Under the pieces are notes generated by a model. That model made no database searches, had not been told where the DNA came from, and worked only from the letters and a program-made list of their open reading frames with translations. Below are positions 6,453 through 63,323 of a stretch of DNA of 64,000 bases, one piece after another. Numbering within the stretch: position 1 is the first letter of the stretch; each line of letters starts with the position of its first letter. The DNA is from Sedimentisphaera salicampi. Lineage in GTDB: Bacteria; Planctomycetota; Phycisphaerae; Sedimentisphaerales; Sedimentisphaeraceae. The position numbers and the translations under genes were made by a program. The stretch is from the NCBI RefSeq assembly GCF_002117005.1, contig NZ_CP021023.1:2108001-2172000 (forward strand), read 5' to 3'.

Positions 6453-8341
6453 GTGCGCCAAGCAAAGCTAATATGTGCAAGTCGGACAATCCGGCACGGG
6501 TAAAGGCTAACCACCAGCCCGGGACTGAACCGGACGTATTGCGAGGTAACGAGTAATGCGAAGCTTCGGTAAGGGCAGTTTGTCAGCCGTAACGCAAGTG
6601 AAGGTATCGAGCCCCGAAATAATCCTTATTTCACTGGGTCAAGGGTTTCATTTCCTGGAAACCAGTATCGATGCGCACGTTAAAGGTGAGTGCGTAATCG
6701 ACGTGGCGGGGTCTAAGTCCGCAGCGGGCAAACAAACTGTACATATTGGAACTTGGGAGAACCGAAGCGTTCCGAAAGGAAGCCGCCAAATAGCCGAAAA
6801 AGTGATGAGGCGGTATGGCGTTTCGGTAGTCGGACTAACCCATAGTAGAGGTGTAGCAGGGGTAATGCCCTGTGGGGCTATAAGCTTACTCGAAGGGGTT
6901 AGCGGTTTAACGCAGAGAGGTGAATTTTAACAATGCAATACCCTGAGATTGGAAAAACATTTGAGAAGTTGCTTCTCATATCCGCTCGCGCCCGAAGGGA
7001 GCGAGGATTCAAGTTTACGAGCCTTGCTCATCTACTTGATGAAGAATACCTTCGGGATTGCTACCAGAACCTTAACCGGAATAAGGCGGTAGGAATTGAC
7101 AATGTAAGCTGGCAGGAATATGGTATAAATCTGGATGAAAATCTCCGGCGGCTTGTCGATAGGCTCAAACGTAAAAAGTATAAGCCTAAACCGGCAAGGC
7201 GGGTATATATACCCAAGGACGATAAAGAAACCCGTCCACTGGGTATATCTGCGATAGAAAGCAAGATAGTAGAAAGCGGGATTGCCCGCATACTAAACTG
7301 CATATATGAGCAGGATTTTCTGGATTGTTCTTACGGTTTTCGCCCGAACAGGAACTGTCATCAGGCGTTAAAGACACTTAACGACCTGATAACATACCAG
7401 CCGGTAAACCATATTGTCGAAGCCGATATTAAAGGCTTCTTCGATAATGTTGACCACGATAAGCTGCTGGAGTTTATTCGAATAAGGATAAATGACACGG
7501 CATTATTAGGGCTGATTGGTAAGTTTCTCAAAGCCGGTTATGTTGACGATGGTCAACTAATAGTATCGCAAAAGGGTACTCCGCAAGGAAGTATTCTAAG
7601 CCCGATACTGGCGAATATATTCCTGCACTATGTACTGGACGAGTGGTTTGAGGCTACGGTTAAAAGCCATACGACCGGTTACTGTGAGCTTGTGAGATAT
7701 GCGGATGATTTTGTATGCGTAGTTCGCTACGCAGACGATGCCGAACGCATTGAGCAGGCGTTGAAGAATAGGTTCAATAAATACGGATTGGAAATACATC
7801 CTACAAAGAGCCGCCGGATAACATTTGGTCGCTTTGAGAAGGAAAACGCCGTAAAAGAGAGCCGAAAGCCTAACACGTTTGACTTTTTAGGATTTACGCA
7901 TTACTGCGACATCTCACGCCGAGGCAAATTTAAGCTCGGGCGTAAGACAAGCGGAAAGAAATTCTCTGCCAAGTGCAGGGAGATGAATGACTGGCTCAAG
8001 GCGATACGAAACCACGTCAAGACTAAAGACTGGTGGAAAGTTCTTGTTGCCAAACTGCGAGGCCATTATCAGTATTACGGCGTAAGTGAGAACTACGCCG
8101 GTATCAGGAGTTTTTACAAACTCACGATAAGGATGGTACGGAAATGGCTGAACAGGCGTAGCCAAAAGCGAAAGATGAGTTGGGAACGGTTTAGTAATTA
8201 CCTTGAACACTATCCTTTGCCAAAACCCGAAATAGTGCATAGCTTTTACAATCGGCAAGTGTAAAGTGAGTTAAACCGAAGAGCCGGATGTGGGAAATCC
8301 ACAAGTCCGGTTCTGTGAGGGGCATTGACGTTTCCTCACAT
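6453..8341 (+). mobile_element. Group II intron with reverse transcriptase ORF
   Basis: The 5' boundary matches the GUGYG consensus (GTGCGCC at 6453). The first 480 bases are non-coding and hold structured intron RNA domains. The RT/maturase ORF follows, and after it a domain V hairpin is visible: GAGCCGGATGTGGGAAATCC at 8281-8300 with ACAAGTCCGGTTC completing the stem. A domain VI-like stem (GTGAGG with CCTCAC) follows, and the intron probably ends at AT 8341. The 3' end is certain only to a few bases. Orientation is the same as the host IS. Splicing would restore an intact IS3 leader upstream of orfA. Confidence 0.85.
6933..8264 (+). CDS. ltrA: Group II intron reverse transcriptase/maturase
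   Basis: Multifunctional intron-encoded protein of 443 residues that promotes splicing and retrohoming of the surrounding intron. RT motifs are in order: RPLGISAIESKIVESGIARI, SYGFRPNRNCHQAL, EADIKGFFDNVDH, the GTPQGSILSPILANI block, and the catalytic RYADDFVCV. A maturase (X) domain with RGHYQYYGVSENY follows. No HNH endonuclease domain is seen after it, so mobility probably uses an endonuclease-independent route. A second RYADD occurs seven residues after the first (RYADDFVCVVRYADD); the first has the right context for the active site. The start ATG at 6933 has GAGAGGTGA upstream. The reading frame is intact from end to end, so the intron may be active or recently arrived. Confidence 0.92.
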   Translation: MQYPEIGKTFEKLLLISARARRERGFKFTSLAHLLDEEYLRDCYQNLNRNKAVGIDNVSWQEYGINLDENLRRLVDRLKRKKYKPKPARRVYIPKDDKETRPLGISAIESKIVESGIARILNCIYEQDFLDCSYGFRPNRNCHQALKTLNDLITYQPVNHIVEADIKGFFDNVDHDKLLEFIRIRINDTALLGLIGKFLKAGYVDDGQLIVSQKGTPQGSILSPILANIFLHYVLDEWFEATVKSHTTGYCELVRYADDFVCVVRYADDAERIEQALKNRFNKYGLEIHPTKSRRITFGRFEKENAVKESRKPNTFDFLGFTHYCDISRRGKFKLGRKTSGKKFSAKCREMNDWLKAIRNHVKTKDWWKVLVAKLRGHYQYYGVSENYAGIRSFYKLTIRMVRKWLNRRSQKRKMSWERFSNYLEHYPLPKPEIVHSFYNRQV

Positions 8342-8386
8342 TTAATAAATGAAAAAATTAAGTTTATGGATGAAAGGAACTATATT

Positions 8387-8812
8387 ATGTCTACTCGACA
8401 AGACAAAAGACCTACAGGCACTCGTTATAGTGAAGCATTTAAGTTGCAAGTGGTAAATGAGCTTGAATCTGGTAAACTCTCATGTATAAATGAAGCCAAT
8501 ATTCGTTATGGAATAGCAGGAAGCCACACCGTTAAGCGTTGGCTTAAGAAATACGGCCGAAACCATTTAATACCAAAGAGGATACGCGTGGAAAGACCAG
8601 ATGAACATGACCGGTTAAAGCAATTAAAAGCAGAGAACAAAGAGCTGAAAGAAGCTCTCGCAGATGCTTATTTAGAAAAGCTTGTAAGTGATTCTCGATT
8701 TGAAGTTACCTGTGAGCAGTTTGGCTTGGACAGTGAAGAAGTCAAAAAAAAACTAGATACGAAACGGCACACAAGGCTTACAAAAGGGCTTCAGAAAAGG
8801 AAGAAAAAGTAA
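8387..8812 (+). CDS. IS3-family transposase OrfA
   Basis: DNA-binding regulator half of an IS3-type transposase, 141 residues. A helix-turn-helix is visible in TRYSEAFKLQVVNELESGK through AGSHTVKRWLKKYGR, followed by a leucine-zipper-like stretch (RLKQLKAENKELKEAL). The ATG at 8387 is chosen because GAAAGGA lies 8 bases upstream and it is downstream of the intron end; the frame is open further back only because it reads through intron RNA. Near the 3' end a nine-A run at 8744-8752 offers a -1 ribosomal frameshift into the orfB frame, which opens at 8737. OrfA alone normally represses or regulates transposition. Confidence 0.85.
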   Translation: MSTRQDKRPTGTRYSEAFKLQVVNELESGKLSCINEANIRYGIAGSHTVKRWLKKYGRNHLIPKRIRVERPDEHDRLKQLKAENKELKEALADAYLEKLVSDSRFEVTCEQFGLDSEEVKKKLDTKRHTRLTKGLQKRKKK

Positions 8813-9627
8813 CCATAACTGAAATATGCTGCGCATCAGGCATAAGCCGCCAGTATTTTTATAAGACTCGTAAAGTGCGTCAAAAGCAGCTTATTGATGA
8901 GGCTTTTATAATGGATTTGGTAAACCAGGAGCGTTCCTTGCAGCCTCAATTAGGCTGCAGAAAGCTCTTGTCGCTGATATCTGAGGACTTATCAGAAGCG
9001 GGGGTTAGTATAGGTCGAGATCGGTTTTTCGATTTGATGGGCAAGTTTAATAAGCTGATCAAGCCTAAAAGACGCAGCACCTCAACGACTAACAGCCGGC
9101 ACAGGTTTCGGGTCTATAGTAATAAGCTTAAAGATATGAATCTGCAAGGCCCAAATGAGGCAATTGTAAGTGATATAACTTATATACGCACCGATCAGGG
9201 TTTTGTCTATCTTGCTCTTGTAATGGATGCCTTCAGCCGCAAGGTCATAGGTTATGATTGCAGTGATAGTCTTGAGGCCGAGGGTTGTTTAAGAGCCTTG
9301 AACCGAGCATTGAAGCAGATCCCCACCTCAGCAAAGGCGGTTCATCATTCCGATCGAGGCTGCCAGTACTGCTGCAATGCTTATATTGATATGCTCCAAG
9401 AAGCTGGTATTGGTATCAGCATGACAGAAGATAAACATTGTTATGAAAATGCTAAGGCAGAGCGGCTTAACGGAATAATGAAACATGAATATGGTTTGTG
9501 CAATACCTTTGCGAAAAAGGAACATGCCTATGAGGCAGTAAAACAAGCGGTGTTGCTTTATAATACCCGCCGCCCGCATGCAGCATTAGGCTATCGAATA
9601 CCAGAGGCGGTGCACTTGGCAGCGTGA
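8737..9627 (+). CDS. IS3-family transposase OrfB (DDE), made by -1 frameshift
   Basis: Catalytic half of the IS3 transposase with an rve-type DDE fold. The acidic residues are seen in SDITYIRTDQGF, HHSDRGCQY and NAKAERLNGIMKHEYG. The frame opens at 8737, overlaps orfA, and has no good independent start; the GTG at 8875 falls inside conserved sequence. The likely product is therefore an OrfAB fusion starting at 8387, produced by slippage on the A-run at 8744-8752. The fusion junction would read KKKTRYETAHKAYKRASEKE. The frame is intact, so the element may still be competent. Confidence 0.85.
   Translation, partial: RSQKKTRYETAHKAYKRASEKEEKVTITEICCASGISRQYFYKTRKVRQKQLIDEAFIMDLVNQERSLQPQLGCRKLLSLISEDLSEAGVSIGRDRFFDLMGKFNKLIKPKRRSTSTTNSRHRFRVYSNKLKDMNLQGPNEAIVSDITYIRTDQGFVYLALVMDAFSRKVIGYDCSDSLEAEGCLRALNRALKQIPTSAKAVHHSDRGCQYCCNAYIDMLQEAGIGISMTEDKHCYENAKAERLNGIMKHEYGLCNTFAKKEHAYEAVKQAVLLYNTRRPHAALGYRIPEAVHLAA
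8744..8752 (+). other. Slippery A-run for programmed -1 frameshift
   Basis: Nine consecutive A bases near the end of orfA contain an A-AAA-AAA heptamer in the orfA frame. A -1 slip leads directly into the open orfB frame. Known IS3 elements use this type of site. Confidence 0.7.
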
Positions 9628-38557: not shown

Positions 38558-38992
38558 TTATTCGGTTTTGTCCTTCTTCTTATTCTTCCTATTCTTACGC
38601 CCGCGGGAGGTGAGATTGTTCTCGAATTTCACTTTCATATATTCCCGCAGCTCTTTATCGTTCTTGAAATGCAGCTCGTAGCCGTATTCATCCTGATTGA
38701 ACTCGCAGCTTTCTGAATCGAAATCTCTGCATATCTGCGGCCTGTCCTTATAGTTCAGGCACATACTCGTTTCCGGGCAGAGATACCTGCACGGCGTGCT
38801 GAAGCTCACATACCACTGCCCATCCTCCACAAACACGCTGATGTTTTCGTGGCAGAGATACCATCTTATATCATCGAAATCTTTTTCGGTTTCGGGATTA
38901 TCTATAGGCAGAGCGATATATCGGCAGCAAAGCCCTTCGCAGTTTTTGCAGCTCTCGTCCATATCGTCGGGCATTTGGTTCTTTTTCCCCAT
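38558..38992 (-). CDS. YkgJ-type cysteine-cluster protein
   Basis: Small metal-binding protein of 144 residues with eight conserved cysteines: CKNCEGLCC near the N terminus, then CHE, FSTPCRYLCPETSMC, and QICRDFDSESC. This spacing is that of the YkgJ/Fe-Zn-chelating domain. The C-terminal tail is lysine and arginine rich. It heads the leftward cluster with DUF547, phoH and mrp. Its role is unknown. Confidence 0.8.
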   Translation of the reverse strand: MGKKNQMPDDMDESCKNCEGLCCRYIALPIDNPETEKDFDDIRWYLCHENISVFVEDGQWYVSFSTPCRYLCPETSMCLNYKDRPQICRDFDSESCEFNQDEYGYELHFKNDKELREYMKVKFENNLTSRGRKNRKNKKKDKTE

Positions 38993-39125
38993 CGTTTATT
39001 TCCTTTGAAGCAGGTATAACAAGCTTAGATTTACTTCCAGTTAATAAAAATGCCTTTCGGCAGACTGAAATTATGAACAAATTCCGCTAAAATCAAGTAC
39101 AATCAAAACAGCTTGGATTATTAAC

Positions 39126-39156
39126 TTGAATTTTCTTATTCTAACAATTAGAATAA
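39126..39156 (+). promoter_or_regulatory. Promoter of the secretin operon with a perfect inverted repeat
   Basis: TTGAAT (39126-39131) and TAGAAT (39149-39154) are 17 bases apart. TTATTCTAA-CAA-TTAGAATAA (39136-39156) is a perfect 9-bp inverted repeat covering the spacer and -10 box, an operator candidate. Confidence 0.6.
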
Positions 39157-39219
39157 AGTAGGCTTGAAACGGATTTCAGGCAGTTTTAGTTTTATATTTC
39201 GCTTTGAAGGGTTCATATT

Positions 39220-40752
39220 TTGACTTCGAGGCTCATTTTCATTTTATCCGCAGCGATTTTTATATGCGGCTGCGGAAGCGAGAGTTTCATAACAGACGAT
39301 GCCACTGAGTTTGAATCGAAGGTTTTATTAGAAGAAGCCTCACGCATCGACGCAGATTCGTCTGTTAAAAACCAATTGCCTGAGATTTACGAACAGGAAC
39401 CTGAGATTATCCAGACATCTTCAGGCACTAAGGTGGTTTATTTCACAAAAAACCAGCCCCCGAATGTGCTTGCAGGGCTTCTGAAAAATCAGATGAAATG
39501 TTCGGCAAACCCCTCCAGCTCCACCAACCAGATCATTATAAGCTGTAAAAACAAGGCTCACGCAGAGGAAACAATAAGCTTTCTCAACAGCGTTGATGTT
39601 CCGCCGGTGCAGATAAAGATAAGCTGCCTGCTTATCGAGCATTACGCAGACCTTACGATGGACAGGGAAACCACTGTACACATTGGCGAGCTCTTCGGCA
39701 CCGATATAACTCTAAGCGGAAAACAAGACGGTGGAGACTATATCCCTAACTTCCCCGGCGCTTCTCTCCGCGAGCCGGACAGAGCCGATTTAAGTCTTGA
39801 TCTGGGATTCGAAAACGGGGCAATAGGCGATTCAGATTTTGTGCGAGTGGTAGTGGATATGCTCGAATCGAGGGGGTATCTCAAGGTAATGATGAACCCC
39901 GAGCTTGAGGTGGTTTCAGGCCAGAAGGCCACATTCAAATCCCGCGAGCAGGTGCCTACAATCCGCGTTATAACCGAAAGAAACAGAGAACCGTACAATC
40001 TCACCGAATATATCTGGGTTGAGGACTATCTGGAAGTTGTCCCGCATCTGTATGCAGACGGAACTATAGGCGTTAAAACAAAGGTTCTTATGGGCTCAAA
40101 ATCCACGCCGGAAGGTGTAGTTCAGCAGAGGATTATTTCCAAGAAGGGCATTGATATCGGTGAAAACCGAATCAAACCCGGCCAGAGCCTTATTATTGGC
40201 GGGTTCAAAAAGGCCGAAAAGGTTTCTGTAATCAGAGGCTTCCCCTTCCTCAAAGATATACCTGCCGTGGGGCTTTTATTCTCGAGCAAGGATTTTGAAG
40301 AGCGGGCAAAGGAGATTACTTTTATCATTACTCCTTCCATCTCAAGCCACGGCGAACCTTACGACGAGATGCTCAAAAAGGTCAGAGAGAAGCTCGATGA
40401 CCACGTAACCGATTCGGAAATCACCAGAATCATCGAAAGGATGATGATTGATCCGTTCCAGAATGAGCTCGAGCAGAGGGAGGTAAAATCGCTCAAGGAC
40501 GAAGAAGAGCTCAAGAAGGTTAAGGCGGAGATAAACCTTGCAAGGCGTTCCCGCGAGCTGAGGAAACTGCGAGACCAGCTTAATGAGCTCAAGCAGAGGC
40601 TTGAATTTGAGAAGAGCCAGGCCTCAGAAGCTCAGAAATCCGCCGAAGAATACCAGAAAGAAATCGAAAAGGTTGAAGAAATTACCGAAAAGCTCGAAAA
40701 GACAATCAATCCCGAAAAAAAGAAGAGCTCTAAGCAGGGAGGGAAGAAATGA
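39220..40752 (+). CDS. Lipoprotein secretin-domain protein (first of pair)
   Basis: Outer-membrane-type lipoprotein of 510 residues. A lipobox ends at Cys18. The middle has a ring-forming N-domain-like part (TNQIIISCKNKAHAEETISF) and a C-terminal secretin core with KSTPEGVVQQ, GQSLIIGGFKK, and the lip sequence RGFPFLKDIPAVGLLFSS followed by KEITFIITPSI. From about residue 415 to the end lies a long charged coiled coil, unusual for a secretin. Start TTG at 39220 follows GAAGGG. No other type II or III secretion genes or inner-membrane ATPase are adjacent. The next gene is a paralog whose ATG overlaps this stop. Function is unknown; a pore or scaffold in the outer membrane is inferred. Confidence 0.75.
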   Translation: MTSRLIFILSAAIFICGCGSESFITDDATEFESKVLLEEASRIDADSSVKNQLPEIYEQEPEIIQTSSGTKVVYFTKNQPPNVLAGLLKNQMKCSANPSSSTNQIIISCKNKAHAEETISFLNSVDVPPVQIKISCLLIEHYADLTMDRETTVHIGELFGTDITLSGKQDGGDYIPNFPGASLREPDRADLSLDLGFENGAIGDSDFVRVVVDMLESRGYLKVMMNPELEVVSGQKATFKSREQVPTIRVITERNREPYNLTEYIWVEDYLEVVPHLYADGTIGVKTKVLMGSKSTPEGVVQQRIISKKGIDIGENRIKPGQSLIIGGFKKAEKVSVIRGFPFLKDIPAVGLLFSSKDFEERAKEITFIITPSISSHGEPYDEMLKKVREKLDDHVTDSEITRIIERMMIDPFQNELEQREVKSLKDEEELKKVKAEINLARRSRELRKLRDQLNELKQRLEFEKSQASEAQKSAEEYQKEIEKVEEITEKLEKTINPEKKKSSKQGGKK

Positions 40753-57479: not shown

Positions 57480-57938
57480 ATTGCTGCGTTTTTTCAACCA
57501 CCGAGGGAGCGGAGGATCACGGAGGGAGAATGATATAATCCATAGATTACTCGGATTTCGCAGATTTTTTGCGGCAAGCTGCAAGTCCGCCTGTGGCGGA
57601 TGGCAAGTAGCAATATCATTAGTGAAAAATTAGCGGAGATTAGCGGCTGAAAAATTCCCTCTCCGCCGCAGGCAAACTATCTCTCCGCCACAGGCGGACT
57701 GGCTCTGTCAAAAAAAATATCTCCAACATCAGAGCAGGATTATGTATTGCGGTGGCAGCGTACTTGCCGGCATAGAGCCTTCCCTCATTTATGAAAATAT
57801 CCCCTCCAATGTAAATTTGATTTATACCGAGCCTGTCCGCCTGCGGCGGGCCTACATGCGTGGCTCGGTTTAAATATTCGTTTCGTGAAATCGCTGCGTA
57901 ATACTAACGGGAATCAGAGCCGCACGTGGATGCCCGCC
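57480..57938. repeat. Composite dispersed repeat (short words, B, C and A)
   Basis: From left to right: a short-word piece (57485-57570), family B (57611-57660), hairpin words, family C (57707-57830) and family A (57851-57938). The family A part runs into the 3' end of the leftward gene and supplies its last codons and stop. Confidence 0.85.
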
Positions 57939-58605
57939 TCTTCCGCACCCATTCGAGGAATTGGGCGTTTTCCCTGCTGCCTGCGGTGAAGATCGCAATC
58001 CGAAGCTCGTATGCCCTGCCGGCGTAGTTCTCCCAGCCCGGCTTCATCCCGAGCTTATCGGCAATATACTCACGAAACTCCTTCATCGTGAAATCCCCGA
58101 TATCCCCGCGAGTTTTCTCTCTCCCGCCATGGCCGGAAGTTTTTTCTTCCGAAGGCGAAGAACAAAGAGCCCCTCCGGAAGGCTCTTTTGTTCGAGACGC
58201 CGCCTTTTCTTTTTTATTTCTTTTACTTTTTAAATTATGGTGGACAATTTGTCTATGATCCTCGCCAATCTGTCTATGCTGCACGCCAGATTGTCTATGT
58301 TCAAAGCCGCTCTGACTATAGCCAATCTGTCTATGTGCCAATTTGTCTATCTGTAATTTTTCTTGAAAATCAGTGGTTTCAATTACCCGGTTCCTGCCGG
58401 CTTCTCTTATCTCAATCAACCCCCCGCAAGACAGATCAGAGACAATCCTTGAGATAGAACGCTCCGAGACGCCGCAGATTCGGGCGAGCTGGGCGTTGGA
58501 CATTCTGCAGCCCTTCGGCAGCCTTCCAGCGGCGAGCACTATCTTCTCAGCACTGCCAACGGGCAGATTCAGGATATCCGATTCGATTTTGATGTAGCTG
58601 ATCAT
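57904..58605 (-). CDS. Winged-helix replication-initiator-like protein with internal iterons
   Basis: A 233-residue protein. The N-terminal 90 residues form a winged helix (MSNAQLARICGVSERSISRI, then GGLIEIREAGRNRVIET), like phage replisome organisers of the lambda O type. Residues about 92-125 are an oligopeptide repeat (HRQIG-type units of 7 residues) encoded by 21-bp direct DNA repeats; after it comes a basic, disordered linker and a C-terminal helical domain (FTMKEFREYIADKLGMKPGW). The start ATG at 58605 follows GAGGAGAAGG. The last dozen codons lie in a family A dispersed repeat, so the original C terminus may be altered. No helicase loader or other phage genes are nearby. The initiator role is inference from architecture. 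Confidence 0.6.
   Translation of the reverse strand: MISYIKIESDILNLPVGSAEKIVLAAGRLPKGCRMSNAQLARICGVSERSISRIVSDLSCGGLIEIREAGRNRVIETTDFQEKLQIDKLAHRQIGYSQSGFEHRQSGVQHRQIGEDHRQIVHHNLKSKRNKKEKAASRTKEPSGGALCSSPSEEKTSGHGGREKTRGDIGDFTMKEFREYIADKLGMKPGWENYAGRAYELRIAIFTAGSRENAQFLEWVRKRRASTCGSDSR
58206..58351 (-). repeat. Iteron-like direct repeats with adjacent AT-rich tract
   Basis: Six copies of a 13-base word, best form CAATCTGTCTATG on the plus strand, start at 58245, 58266, 58287, 58308, 58323 and 58339. The first four are spaced exactly 21 bases, two helical turns. A pyrimidine-rich AT tract (58206-58240) adjoins them. The last copy is read in a different frame from the others, so conservation is at DNA level. 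This resembles an origin inside an initiator gene. Confidence 0.6.
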
Positions 58606-58811
58606 TTCCTTCTCCTCTTTAACGTATTTCCGATTTCTCAAAGGTTTATGACAGATTGAACGGGAGGCCTAAAAACAAAATTTTTTCAATCTGCCATAGC
58701 TTCTTATTAAAAACGGCCTCTCACCCTTGGCTGAATGTTAATATTTTGCGCGGAGATTACCTGCAGGAAGGGGCGCTGTGCGCTGCGCAAACCGCTGCTA
58801 ATAAAGGAGTA

Positions 58812-60057: not shown

Positions 60058-60131
60058 TACGCCCGGCAGGATTCGAACCTGCGACCTTTGGATTAGGAAT
60101 CCAACGCTCTATCCAACTGAGCTACGAGCGC
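60058..60131 (-). tRNA. tRNA-Arg (CCT)
   Basis: A 74-base cloverleaf on the minus strand with acceptor stem GCGCTCG/CGGGCGT (two wobble pairs), discriminator A, anticodon stem TTGGA/TCCAA around TTCCTAA (anticodon CCT), and T-loop GGTTCGAATCC. CCA is not encoded. tRNA genes are frequent integration sites; no matching att repeat was found in the window. Confidence 0.95.
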
Positions 60132-60800: not shown

Positions 60801-60931
60801 CGTTTCCTTCAAAAATTTAAAAAATCAGCAAAAATACTGAATTTTAATTTGAATTCTGCGTTCAAATTTGGTATGTTAAGAAACATAAGTTTTTATAAAG
60901 TTTAGTGGAATTAAAGTTGGCAGGTGTGAAA

Positions 60932-61606
60932 ATGAAAAATTTATTGCCTCTGGCGGCGCTGGTTGTTATGGCTTCTGCAAGCTTGGCGGCGTACAATCCT
61001 GTGTTTACAATTAATGCCGAGGCCTCAGAAACGGCATTAGGCTATCAGGAAGGCCAGTCTTACAGCTTCAGCTTTGTTGCTGACGGCTCAAGAACCGAGC
61101 AGGCGGACGATGTATTCAGCCAATCTCAAAACTTCTGGAATGCAGAGCTCACAGGACAAGCCCCTGTGTTTCTGGATATTTACGGCTCAGGCGTTTCAGG
61201 TGAATATCAGACGCCGGATTCGACAGATTCTGATCCAAAAGATAAATTGGGCATTTATCATATAGATGATTTCTACAATAACACCACAGAATTCTACCTT
61301 TCTGCAATGGCAGATTCCAGCAATCTAAACATCACTGCGCCAAACGGTGATTATTTGAAACTTGTCAAATTTGTTGATTATGATGACAGCTTCGGCTTTG
61401 ACTTTTCCAGCCAGACCTACTTAACCCCCGAAGCGTATTTCTCGGATTATTTAGGGGAGTATGATATCAGCGGCTCTTTCGAAGTTGCAAATGAAAACTC
61501 GAACTATGCAAATTTTACTCCAACTTCGGTTACCATCACCCCCGAGCCGGCGACGATGGCTCTTCTCGGCCTCGGCGGCCTCTTCATCCGCCGCAGAAGA
61601 ACTTAA
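60932..61606 (+). CDS. PEP-CTERM protein, array member 1
   Basis: Exported protein of 224 residues starting MKNLLPLAALVVMASASLAA, with a body of unknown fold and a C-terminal sorting tag TPEPATMALLGLGGLFIRRR. ATG 60932 is preferred over an upstream frame start at 60905 because GCAGGTG precedes it and the signal peptide starts there. The body shares a general plan with the next gene (repeated GSGVSG and FSDYLGEYD-type segments), so the two are paralogs. The tag is expected to be cleaved by an exosortase. The last 88 bp through the stop are identical to those of member 2. Confidence 0.88.
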   Translation: MKNLLPLAALVVMASASLAAYNPVFTINAEASETALGYQEGQSYSFSFVADGSRTEQADDVFSQSQNFWNAELTGQAPVFLDIYGSGVSGEYQTPDSTDSDPKDKLGIYHIDDFYNNTTEFYLSAMADSSNLNITAPNGDYLKLVKFVDYDDSFGFDFSSQTYLTPEAYFSDYLGEYDISGSFEVANENSNYANFTPTSVTITPEPATMALLGLGGLFIRRRRT

Positions 61607-61680
61607 AACTTAGAACTTACAACTTAGGACTTAGGACTTAATACTTACAACTTGTAACTTAGAACTTATTTTTTACAAGG
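61604..61680 (+). repeat. AACTT short-word array 1
   Basis: Tandem degenerate words of 7-10 bases such as AACTTAGAACTTACAACTTA and GGACTTAATACTTACAACTT between two PEP-CTERM genes. The same words recur at 62335-62412 and 63321-63362. Confidence 0.8.
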
Positions 61681-61689
61681 AGAACAAAA

Positions 61690-62337
61690 ATGAAAAATTT
61701 ATTGCCTCTGGCGGCGGTTGTAATTGCAATTTCAGCGTGTTCTGTTTCGGCCGCTTACGATCCTGTGATCACTGTAACGGGCACAGCTCTAAGCAATAAT
61801 AATAGGGGATACACTCCCGGGCAGGAGTACGATTTCACTTTTGTTCTCAACGGCTCGCGTTCAGAAGAACAGAACTATGATATGTACAATACATATCAGA
61901 ATATGTGGCAAACCGATCTGCCTGAATCCGAAGCAGTAGTTGAAGATATCTATGGCTCAGGAGTATCGGGGGACTACCAAAGGCCGCAAGACCCATGGGA
62001 ATGGATTACTGTCAATTCAAACGGCCTGCATATTAAATCAGATGTAGAAGCAGGAAGTATGAACCTGTTTACACCCGAGGATGATGAAATATTCCAAATA
62101 GTATTAACTGAGATTGTTCTTCCCGAAGAATCCTTTGATTACACCACGACTTCCTACAAAACCCCCTGGCAATACTTTTCCGATTACCTTGGCGAATATG
62201 AGGTATTGGATGGTGGAGGGCTGACTGTCAACTACTCGACTGTTTTAGATGTGGATTCGGTTACCATCACCCCCGAGCCGGCGACGATGGCTCTTCTCGG
62301 CCTCGGCGGCCTCTTCATCCGCCGCAGAAGAACTTAA
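61690..62337 (+). CDS. PEP-CTERM protein, array member 2
   Basis: Secreted protein of 215 residues, paralog of member 1, with the same first 30 bp of DNA and the same 3' 88 bp but a diverged middle. Shared features include GYTPGQEYDFTFVLNGSRSE, IYGSGVSGDYQ and WQYFSDYLGEYEV. RBS AAGGAG lies just upstream. Function unknown. Confidence 0.88.
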   Translation: MKNLLPLAAVVIAISACSVSAAYDPVITVTGTALSNNNRGYTPGQEYDFTFVLNGSRSEEQNYDMYNTYQNMWQTDLPESEAVVEDIYGSGVSGDYQRPQDPWEWITVNSNGLHIKSDVEAGSMNLFTPEDDEIFQIVLTEIVLPEESFDYTTTSYKTPWQYFSDYLGEYEVLDGGGLTVNYSTVLDVDSVTITPEPATMALLGLGGLFIRRRRT

Positions 62338-62412
62338 AACTTAAAACTTAGGACTTAATACTTACAACTTGTAACTTAGAACATAAAACATACAACTTAA
62401 TACTTTTTTACT
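62335..62412 (+). repeat. AACTT short-word array 2
   Basis: Words such as AACTTAAAACTTAGGACTTA and TACTTACAACTTGTAACTTA, then AACATAAAACATACAACTTA, precede the AGGAG site of the next gene. Confidence 0.8.
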
Positions 62413-62423
62413 AGGAGAACAAA

Positions 62424-63323
62424 ATGATGTGTTATTTAAGGAATTTGATGTGTTTGTCTGTGCTAATCGCTTTGCTTCTTGCAGCCCCCGCATTCAGCGC
62501 ATACACGTTTGAAGGCGGAAATGCAATTTCTCATGAAGTAGGCGGGGAGGAAATTTCAGTTTCTGACTGGTCAGAAGTTTCCTCTGGCGATGAATTGTAT
62601 ATTGGCCATGACGCATGGGGCAAACTAACCGGCGACGGCGGCTCTGGAACGGTTTATAATACTTATGTAGGCTATAACGGCGAGGGTGAAATGGTTCTTG
62701 CTGGAAGCAGTACAGATTTTACAAACGATAACGATTTTGCCGTGGGTGCGTTTGACAGCGGAGAGTTATCTGTCTCAAACGGAGCCTCTCTCTTGGTTAG
62801 AGCTGGCTTGCAGGTAGGATTAGAGTCTCAGGGAATTATGACCGTTGACGGCGGAGACGTGAATGGTGGAGGAGGAATTATTATGAATAATTCTGATTCT
62901 GCCGATGCGGACGGCAGCAGCCTTACAATCACAGGCGGCGGTACTGTAGATGCATATTCGCTTTCTCATTATAACAATTCCTCCTCTATGACCATTGAAG
63001 ACGGGACAGCCGATTTTGTTGATGGTTATGGTATAGTTGTTTATGGAGGGACATTTACAATTAACGTAGGCCTTTCCGGAAGTTTAAAACTTGGCCAGTT
63101 TTATCATAACGATATGGAGAGCTTTCTGGGGTTTATTGATGCACAGAATGACTCAACCATAAACCTCAATCTCTGGGACGGCTCGGATTATGTGGATTAT
63201 TCTGCGCTCACTGAAGACGTGGATTATCAGGTAAATGGCGGTGAGCTTACAATCGTCCCCGAGCCGGCGACGATGGCTCTTCTAGGCCTCGGCGGCCTCT
63301 TCGTCCGCCGCAGAAGAACATAA
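62424..63323 (+). CDS. PEP-CTERM protein, array member 3
   Basis: Secreted protein of 299 residues with a signal peptide, a beta-solenoid-like body (repeated units such as GELSVSNGASLLVRAGLQVG, GIMTVDGGDVNGGGG and SLTITGGGTVDA, like autotransporter or pseudo-adhesin repeats) and the tag VPEPATMALLGLGGLFVRRR. The middle is unrelated to members 1 and 2, but the tag DNA is nearly the same. This shows an end shared by different bodies. Confidence 0.88.
   Translation: MMCYLRNLMCLSVLIALLLAAPAFSAYTFEGGNAISHEVGGEEISVSDWSEVSSGDELYIGHDAWGKLTGDGGSGTVYNTYVGYNGEGEMVLAGSSTDFTNDNDFAVGAFDSGELSVSNGASLLVRAGLQVGLESQGIMTVDGGDVNGGGGIIMNNSDSADADGSSLTITGGGTVDAYSLSHYNNSSSMTIEDGTADFVDGYGIVVYGGTFTINVGLSGSLKLGQFYHNDMESFLGFIDAQNDSTINLNLWDGSDYVDYSALTEDVDYQVNGGELTIVPEPATMALLGLGGLFVRRRRT

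Follow-up and report, generated by a model that had tools for sequence, protein, structure and literature searches.

The closest described system is the replication origin of phage lambda, which lies within the gene of its own initiator, O, and comprises four 19-bp iterons and a 49-bp AT-rich, strand-asymmetric region (PMC4488673), each iteron being an inverted repeat (PMC7466680). In the lambda sequence (J02459, O at 38686-39585), the iterons inside O occur at 39034, 39054, 39078 and 39101 (span 39034-39118) and change codon phase, with a purine-rich AT tract (AAAAGAAAAAAGAAAAG) at the place corresponding to that described below, and then a 10-bp hairpin. The window analysed here, i.e. the whole stretch of 64,000 nucleotides, contains a gene whose parts follow the lambda order, from the DNA-binding domain through repeats, AT purine tract and hairpin to the C-terminal part. 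We conclude, with a probability of about 0.82, that this gene encodes an O-type replication initiator and that, as in lambda, the origin lies within the coding sequence. Six dyad-type sites with the half-site TAGACA, located in the linker-encoding segment, would serve as targets of the N-terminal winged helix, and the array, once bound, would melt the adjoining purine-rich AT tract; the hairpin and the C-terminal domain might then help to load host helicase or replisome, and the protein may repress itself through an inverted repeat that shares the site core and precedes the start codon.

The gene (57904-58605, minus strand) encodes 233 amino acids from an ATG start with GGAGAAGGAA upstream of it. 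Its product begins with a winged-helix DNA-binding domain (codons 1-80, 58366-58605; HTH_Crp_2 E=1.4e-5, below the Pfam cut-off), as the first-pass annotation had also read it, and ends in a C-terminal domain (GDIGDFTMKEF..WVRKRR, 57922-58107), the presumed replisome contact, with dN/dS of 0.28-0.35 between species. The predicted structure is of poor quality (pLDDT 44.5), and at that low confidence it gives the order strand-helix-helix-helix-strand-strand for the winged helix and a helical C-terminal domain. A PDB profile search with the protein returned mainly generic winged-helix regulators, SlyA and CRP among them, at E 0.03 and above. The winged helix and adjoining linker match PHROG families 678, 345, 270 and 2880, which hold O-like and other replication initiation proteins, the matches to 'replication initiation O-like' having E=2.3e-7 (phrog_678) and E=2.7e-7 (phrog_2880).

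The sites lie on the coding (minus) strand in the linker-encoding segment and are dyad-type 15-mers, composed of a 6-bp half-site, a 3-bp spacer and a second 6-bp half-site, with TAGACA as the left half in five of six. Counted from the start-codon side, these are TAGACA-AAT-TGGCAC (58335-58349), TAGACA-GAT-TGGCTA (58319-58333), TAGTCA-GAG-CGGCTT (58304-58318; degenerate here, TAGACA in genomic copy C4), TAGACA-ATC-TGGCGT (58283-58297), TAGACA-GAT-TGGCGA (58262-58276) and TAGACA-AAT-TGTCCA (58241-58255), the last of which adjoins the AT tract. Start-to-start spacing in this direction is 16-15-21-21-21 bp (21, 21, 21, 15, 16 by rising coordinate), and five of the sites share one codon phase that the site nearest the start codon departs from. 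Two claims of the first-pass annotation, namely 21-bp spacing among four copies and a sixth copy 16 bases off in another frame, thus agree with the computed steps and phases. It had also described a 13-base word occurring six times; six sites do exist, but CATAGACARATTG is exact in just three, with one mismatch in one, two in another, and the copy at 58304 degenerate. A five-copy chain of one 10-mer, with one mismatch allowed, was reached in 0/200 synonymous-codon shuffles and 0/100 Markov sequences; the lag-21 identity score alone is a weaker test for this gene, since 10/200 synonymous shuffles reach the observed value.

Beside the array lies the presumed unwinding element (58204-58239, minus strand), an AT tract that had been noticed in the first reading and is purine-rich on the coding strand. 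AT content is 78% and purine content 80% in 58200-58239, compared to 73% and 69% in the lambda tract, so the strand asymmetry is present in both. A hairpin, GAACAAAAGAGCC..GGCTCTTTGTTC, occupies 58160-58193 (minus strand). In the congeneric species, one of its pairs changes from A-T to T-A, a two-sided compensatory change that alters K to I and L to H and counts as a single covariation event. The 91-bp block of tract and hairpin is 99-100% identical across the four genomic copies and absent elsewhere in the genome. Upstream of the start codon, the inverted repeat TATGGCAGATTGAA / TTCAATCTGTCATA (58647-58660 / 58685-58698, spanning 58647-58698) shares the site core; GRCAGATTG occurs 7 times in 64 kb versus 1.3 expected, two occurrences being in the arms of the inverted repeat and two in sites. 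GGCAGATTG, the arm nearest the 5' end, is present in 5/5 cassette copies, and from its sequence the inverted repeat is a possible operator for self-repression of the initiator. While the extent originally given for the feature (58206-58351) does contain the array, the feature reaches further, to the hairpin on one side and this inverted repeat on the other. The conserved leader upstream of the initiator (58605-58752) also contains GAGGCC..GGCCTC interleaved with TATGGCAGATTGAA..TTCAATCTGTCATA, and may be an RNA pseudoknot or an operator.

The likeness to lambda extends to repeats that do not all stand in one reading frame, whereas number and spacing differ, with four iterons at 20-24-23 in lambda and six sites at 16-15-21-21-21 here. 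The word is unrelated to that of lambda, the copies are solo and chromosomal, and no P-like partner was found beside the gene: among the window ORFs near it, no primase-helicase, P-like helicase loader or other replication gene was seen, although a P-like loader gene alongside marks the lambda O family. Homology of the window protein to lambda O was not detected (hhalign probability 0.35%, E 0.17), nor did it match the lambda O family models PF04492 and TIGR01610; one distant homolog (G029) scores 28.1 bits against the PF04492 cut-off of 28.7. By its PHROG matches only, the protein is placed in a broad O-like initiator group. The best statement is that the window system probably works like lambda O, albeit not as a lambda O family member by sequence; it does have the repeated words inside an initiator gene, conserved as DNA, of an O-type in-gene iteron origin.

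In this genus, the cassette occurs as solo chromosomal copies, four in this genome (the window copy, W, and C2, C3 and C4) and one, intact, in the congener (G001). Type A sites (TAGACA) are found in W and C4 and type B sites (GTGTCA) in C2, C3 and G001, the linker peptide of type B being unlike that of type A; genome-wide, stray copies of the window word outside W and C4 are isolated, imperfect matches. In all five cassettes, the six sites stand at identical distances from the AT tract (-110, -94, -79, -58, -37 and -16). Persistence of the repeats among homologs had been proposed as a check, and its outcome is that spacing holds in five cassettes of two species with the word changed in concert. 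Between W and C2, the winged helix has diverged (dS 0.72), as have the sites (dN 0.80), and the tract plus hairpin and the C-terminal part are almost identical (dS 0.02 and 0.12). Because divergence is confined to those two parts, winged helix and sites differ jointly as one cassette, with the remainder homogenised; as there are two word types only within the genus, this co-change counts as one event. C4 has lost the winged-helix codons and keeps sites, tract and hairpin, its deletion appearing from the sequence to run between two GAAAAATT words, and C3 has lost the normal C-terminus.

Selection was evaluated between C2 and G001, which come from two species and have the same site type. dS reached 0.79 for the winged helix and 0.90 for the C-terminal part, but just 0.31 across the sites and 0.13 across tract and hairpin; in counts, 8.5 synonymous changes fell in 44.9 synonymous sites of the sites and tract/hairpin region, compared to 54.5 in 108.2 in the flanking parts. 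The corresponding dN/dS values of 0.14 (winged helix) and 0.28 (C-terminal part) indicate that the protein, too, is under purifying selection. That DNA rather than peptide is conserved, as the first-pass annotation had proposed, is borne out by the synonymous constraint limited to sites, tract and hairpin and by frame-breaking spacings of 22-23 bp in remote homologs, which are not multiples of three. The converse case, in which peptide repeats are kept and the DNA words scrambled synonymously, does not occur among the homologs compared.

Profile homologs were found in 31/161 genomes of the order and in 8/392 genomes sampled across the phylum. The words of distant homologs are unrelated to that of the window and recur every 21-23 bp, a spacing that in many cases is out of frame; rows of this survey in which the automatic frame choice took a neighbouring gene, in several loci, were left out. 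Linker words include CTACTTTGAC (G021, 21 bp), TTACTTTAGC (G070, 21-22 bp), CTACTGGGG (G025, 22 bp), ACCGACCTAT (G011, 22-24 bp), TAGGCAAAAA (L091, 22-23-22-23) and CGACAAAGCT (L078, 23-22-23), and no significant word chain was obtained for G088, G095, G069 and G029 in a shuffle test of the chain. As for the window protein, the PHROG matches of homologs are to 'replication initiation, O-like'. The G021 and G033 homologs occupy stretches of 4.28 and 4.29 kb flanked by identical 54-bp repeats, which are the 3' part of tRNA-Arg (tcg). A tyrosine integrase and an excisionase-like protein are encoded in these elements too. In G025, G095, G070 and G009, the initiator is directly followed by a gene with a CHC2 primase-like start, which in G025 matches primase and DnaB-like helicase models, and in G025 and G095 an integrase overlaps a tRNA. 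These neighbours of homologs (integrase, excisionase, primase-helicase and tRNA att repeats) point to a mobile-element initiator. The first reading of origin and initiator in one gene is thereby made more probable by homolog spacing, synonymous constraint and the mobile-element neighbourhood of homologs. Another comparison is with small tRNA-targeted integrative elements or satellites, which resemble the present system in that homologs sit in the 4.3-kb elements of G021/G033 and in primase-helicase elements, and from which it differs in that the cassette stands alone in the genus of the window. No relatives of the window protein were found by tblastn in IMG/VR viral contigs, phages or plasmids; the family members found here are from Planctomycetota genomes. 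A different subfamily has a ParB-like gene immediately ahead of the initiator homolog (L037:1350-2693), and this ParB-like gene recurs at the homolog loci L081 and L093.

At the window copy itself, no integrase was seen among the neighbouring ORFs, and the gene is not enclosed by an integrase and direct-repeat att sites of the kind that delimit an integrative element. tRNA-Arg at 60058-60131 was considered as an att repeat and rejected, as a second copy of the tRNA 3' end was not found in the window. The neighbouring TPR gene was likewise rejected as an element part; it was not found in the congener, hence no empty-site comparison is available there. Flanking repeats were discarded as element ends because they are dispersed genome-wide, with 52 matches to a 147-bp piece. 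The segment 57420-57870, like many other places, is a mosaic of dispersed intergenic repeats, with CCGCCTGCGGCGG palindromes and a repeat of ~100 bp. Elsewhere in the window, a group II intron-type reverse transcriptase is directly followed by two ORFs resembling an IS3-type transposase pair (6933-9627), and three tandem secreted proteins (60905-63323) share a PEP-CTERM-like sorting signal at their ends, ITPEPATMALLGLGGLFIRRRRT or a sequence close to it.

These surroundings bear on whether the cassette is what remains of a dead integrative element, still built like an origin but now functionless. This is the most serious alternative, although we consider it doubtful: partner genes that relatives have in intact elements are missing at the window, and two of the four genome copies are broken (C4 without winged helix, C3 without normal C-terminus), but the window ORF is intact with dN/dS of 0.34-0.44 in both domains versus G001 and C2, and the congener also has a solo intact copy. 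The suggestion of an unknown or decayed mobile element in the first-pass annotation therefore fits the broken copies and not the window copy, where dN/dS is below 1. A transcription regulator that controls itself via operator sites within its gene and takes no part in replication would account for the winged-helix domain, for the upstream inverted repeat with the site core and for a solo gene with no replication partners found nearby; it is nonetheless improbable, leaving unexplained why AT tract and hairpin are conserved next to the array, why PHROG initiator families match, and why homologs lie beside primase-helicase and integrase.

It is hardly credible that selection acted on the protein, for a linker of repeated HRQIG heptads, and left the DNA repeats as a by-product. 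Five of six sites do share a frame and the lag-21 score is within reach of synonymous shuffles, but one site is in another frame, the word chain is never reproduced, the synonymous constraint and the unlike type B peptide do not fit, and homologs with frame-breaking 22-23 bp spacing refute this reading. The solo cassettes might also act as decoy origins: by titrating the initiator of related elements that enter the cell, they would provide immunity or incompatibility. Retention of sites, tract and hairpin by C4 without the winged helix would suit such a role, as would the reported arrest of lambda by ectopic lambda origins (PMC4488673); however, that arrest used a multicopy plasmid (PMC4488673), whereas copies here are few, and no incoming element with a close relative occurs in the viral contigs, phages and plasmids searched, making titration a quite unlikely function. 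A somewhat broader conjecture, to which we give little more credence, is that the chromosome has retained minimal solo initiator-origin cassettes, that these have spread in it, and that they provide the host with origin decoys or an extra control of replication, their specificity switching by joint swap of winged helix and sites.

The preferred O-type initiator reading concerns a known kind of system, whose copies here stand alone in the chromosome of a bacterium, two sets of them having changed word and DNA-binding domain together. One genome thus holds two natural initiator versions, the half-site changing from TAGACA to GTGTCA with spacing unchanged and identical tract and hairpin adjoining, which amounts to a ready-made swap experiment on the joint specificity change of an O-type initiator and its gene-locked origin. 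On this reading, in-gene origins also reach a Planctomycetota family of small integrative elements.

The same genome contains another family of in-gene-repeat initiators, unrelated to the first (L055:8461-9327, minus strand; L056:6768-7577, minus strand; L057:7219-7722), built of 57-bp units with CCGGTCTATTTTTTAGACC, of which one has an intact primase-helicase and two are broken. At L057, two different repeat arrays stand side by side, as if recombined, and near the broken initiator and primase there is a CRISPR-like array with a 66-bp period (GTTGTGGCTTGCTCACAGATTCGGATCAGTTACAAT) and a Cas2-like gene (L057:10131-12750).
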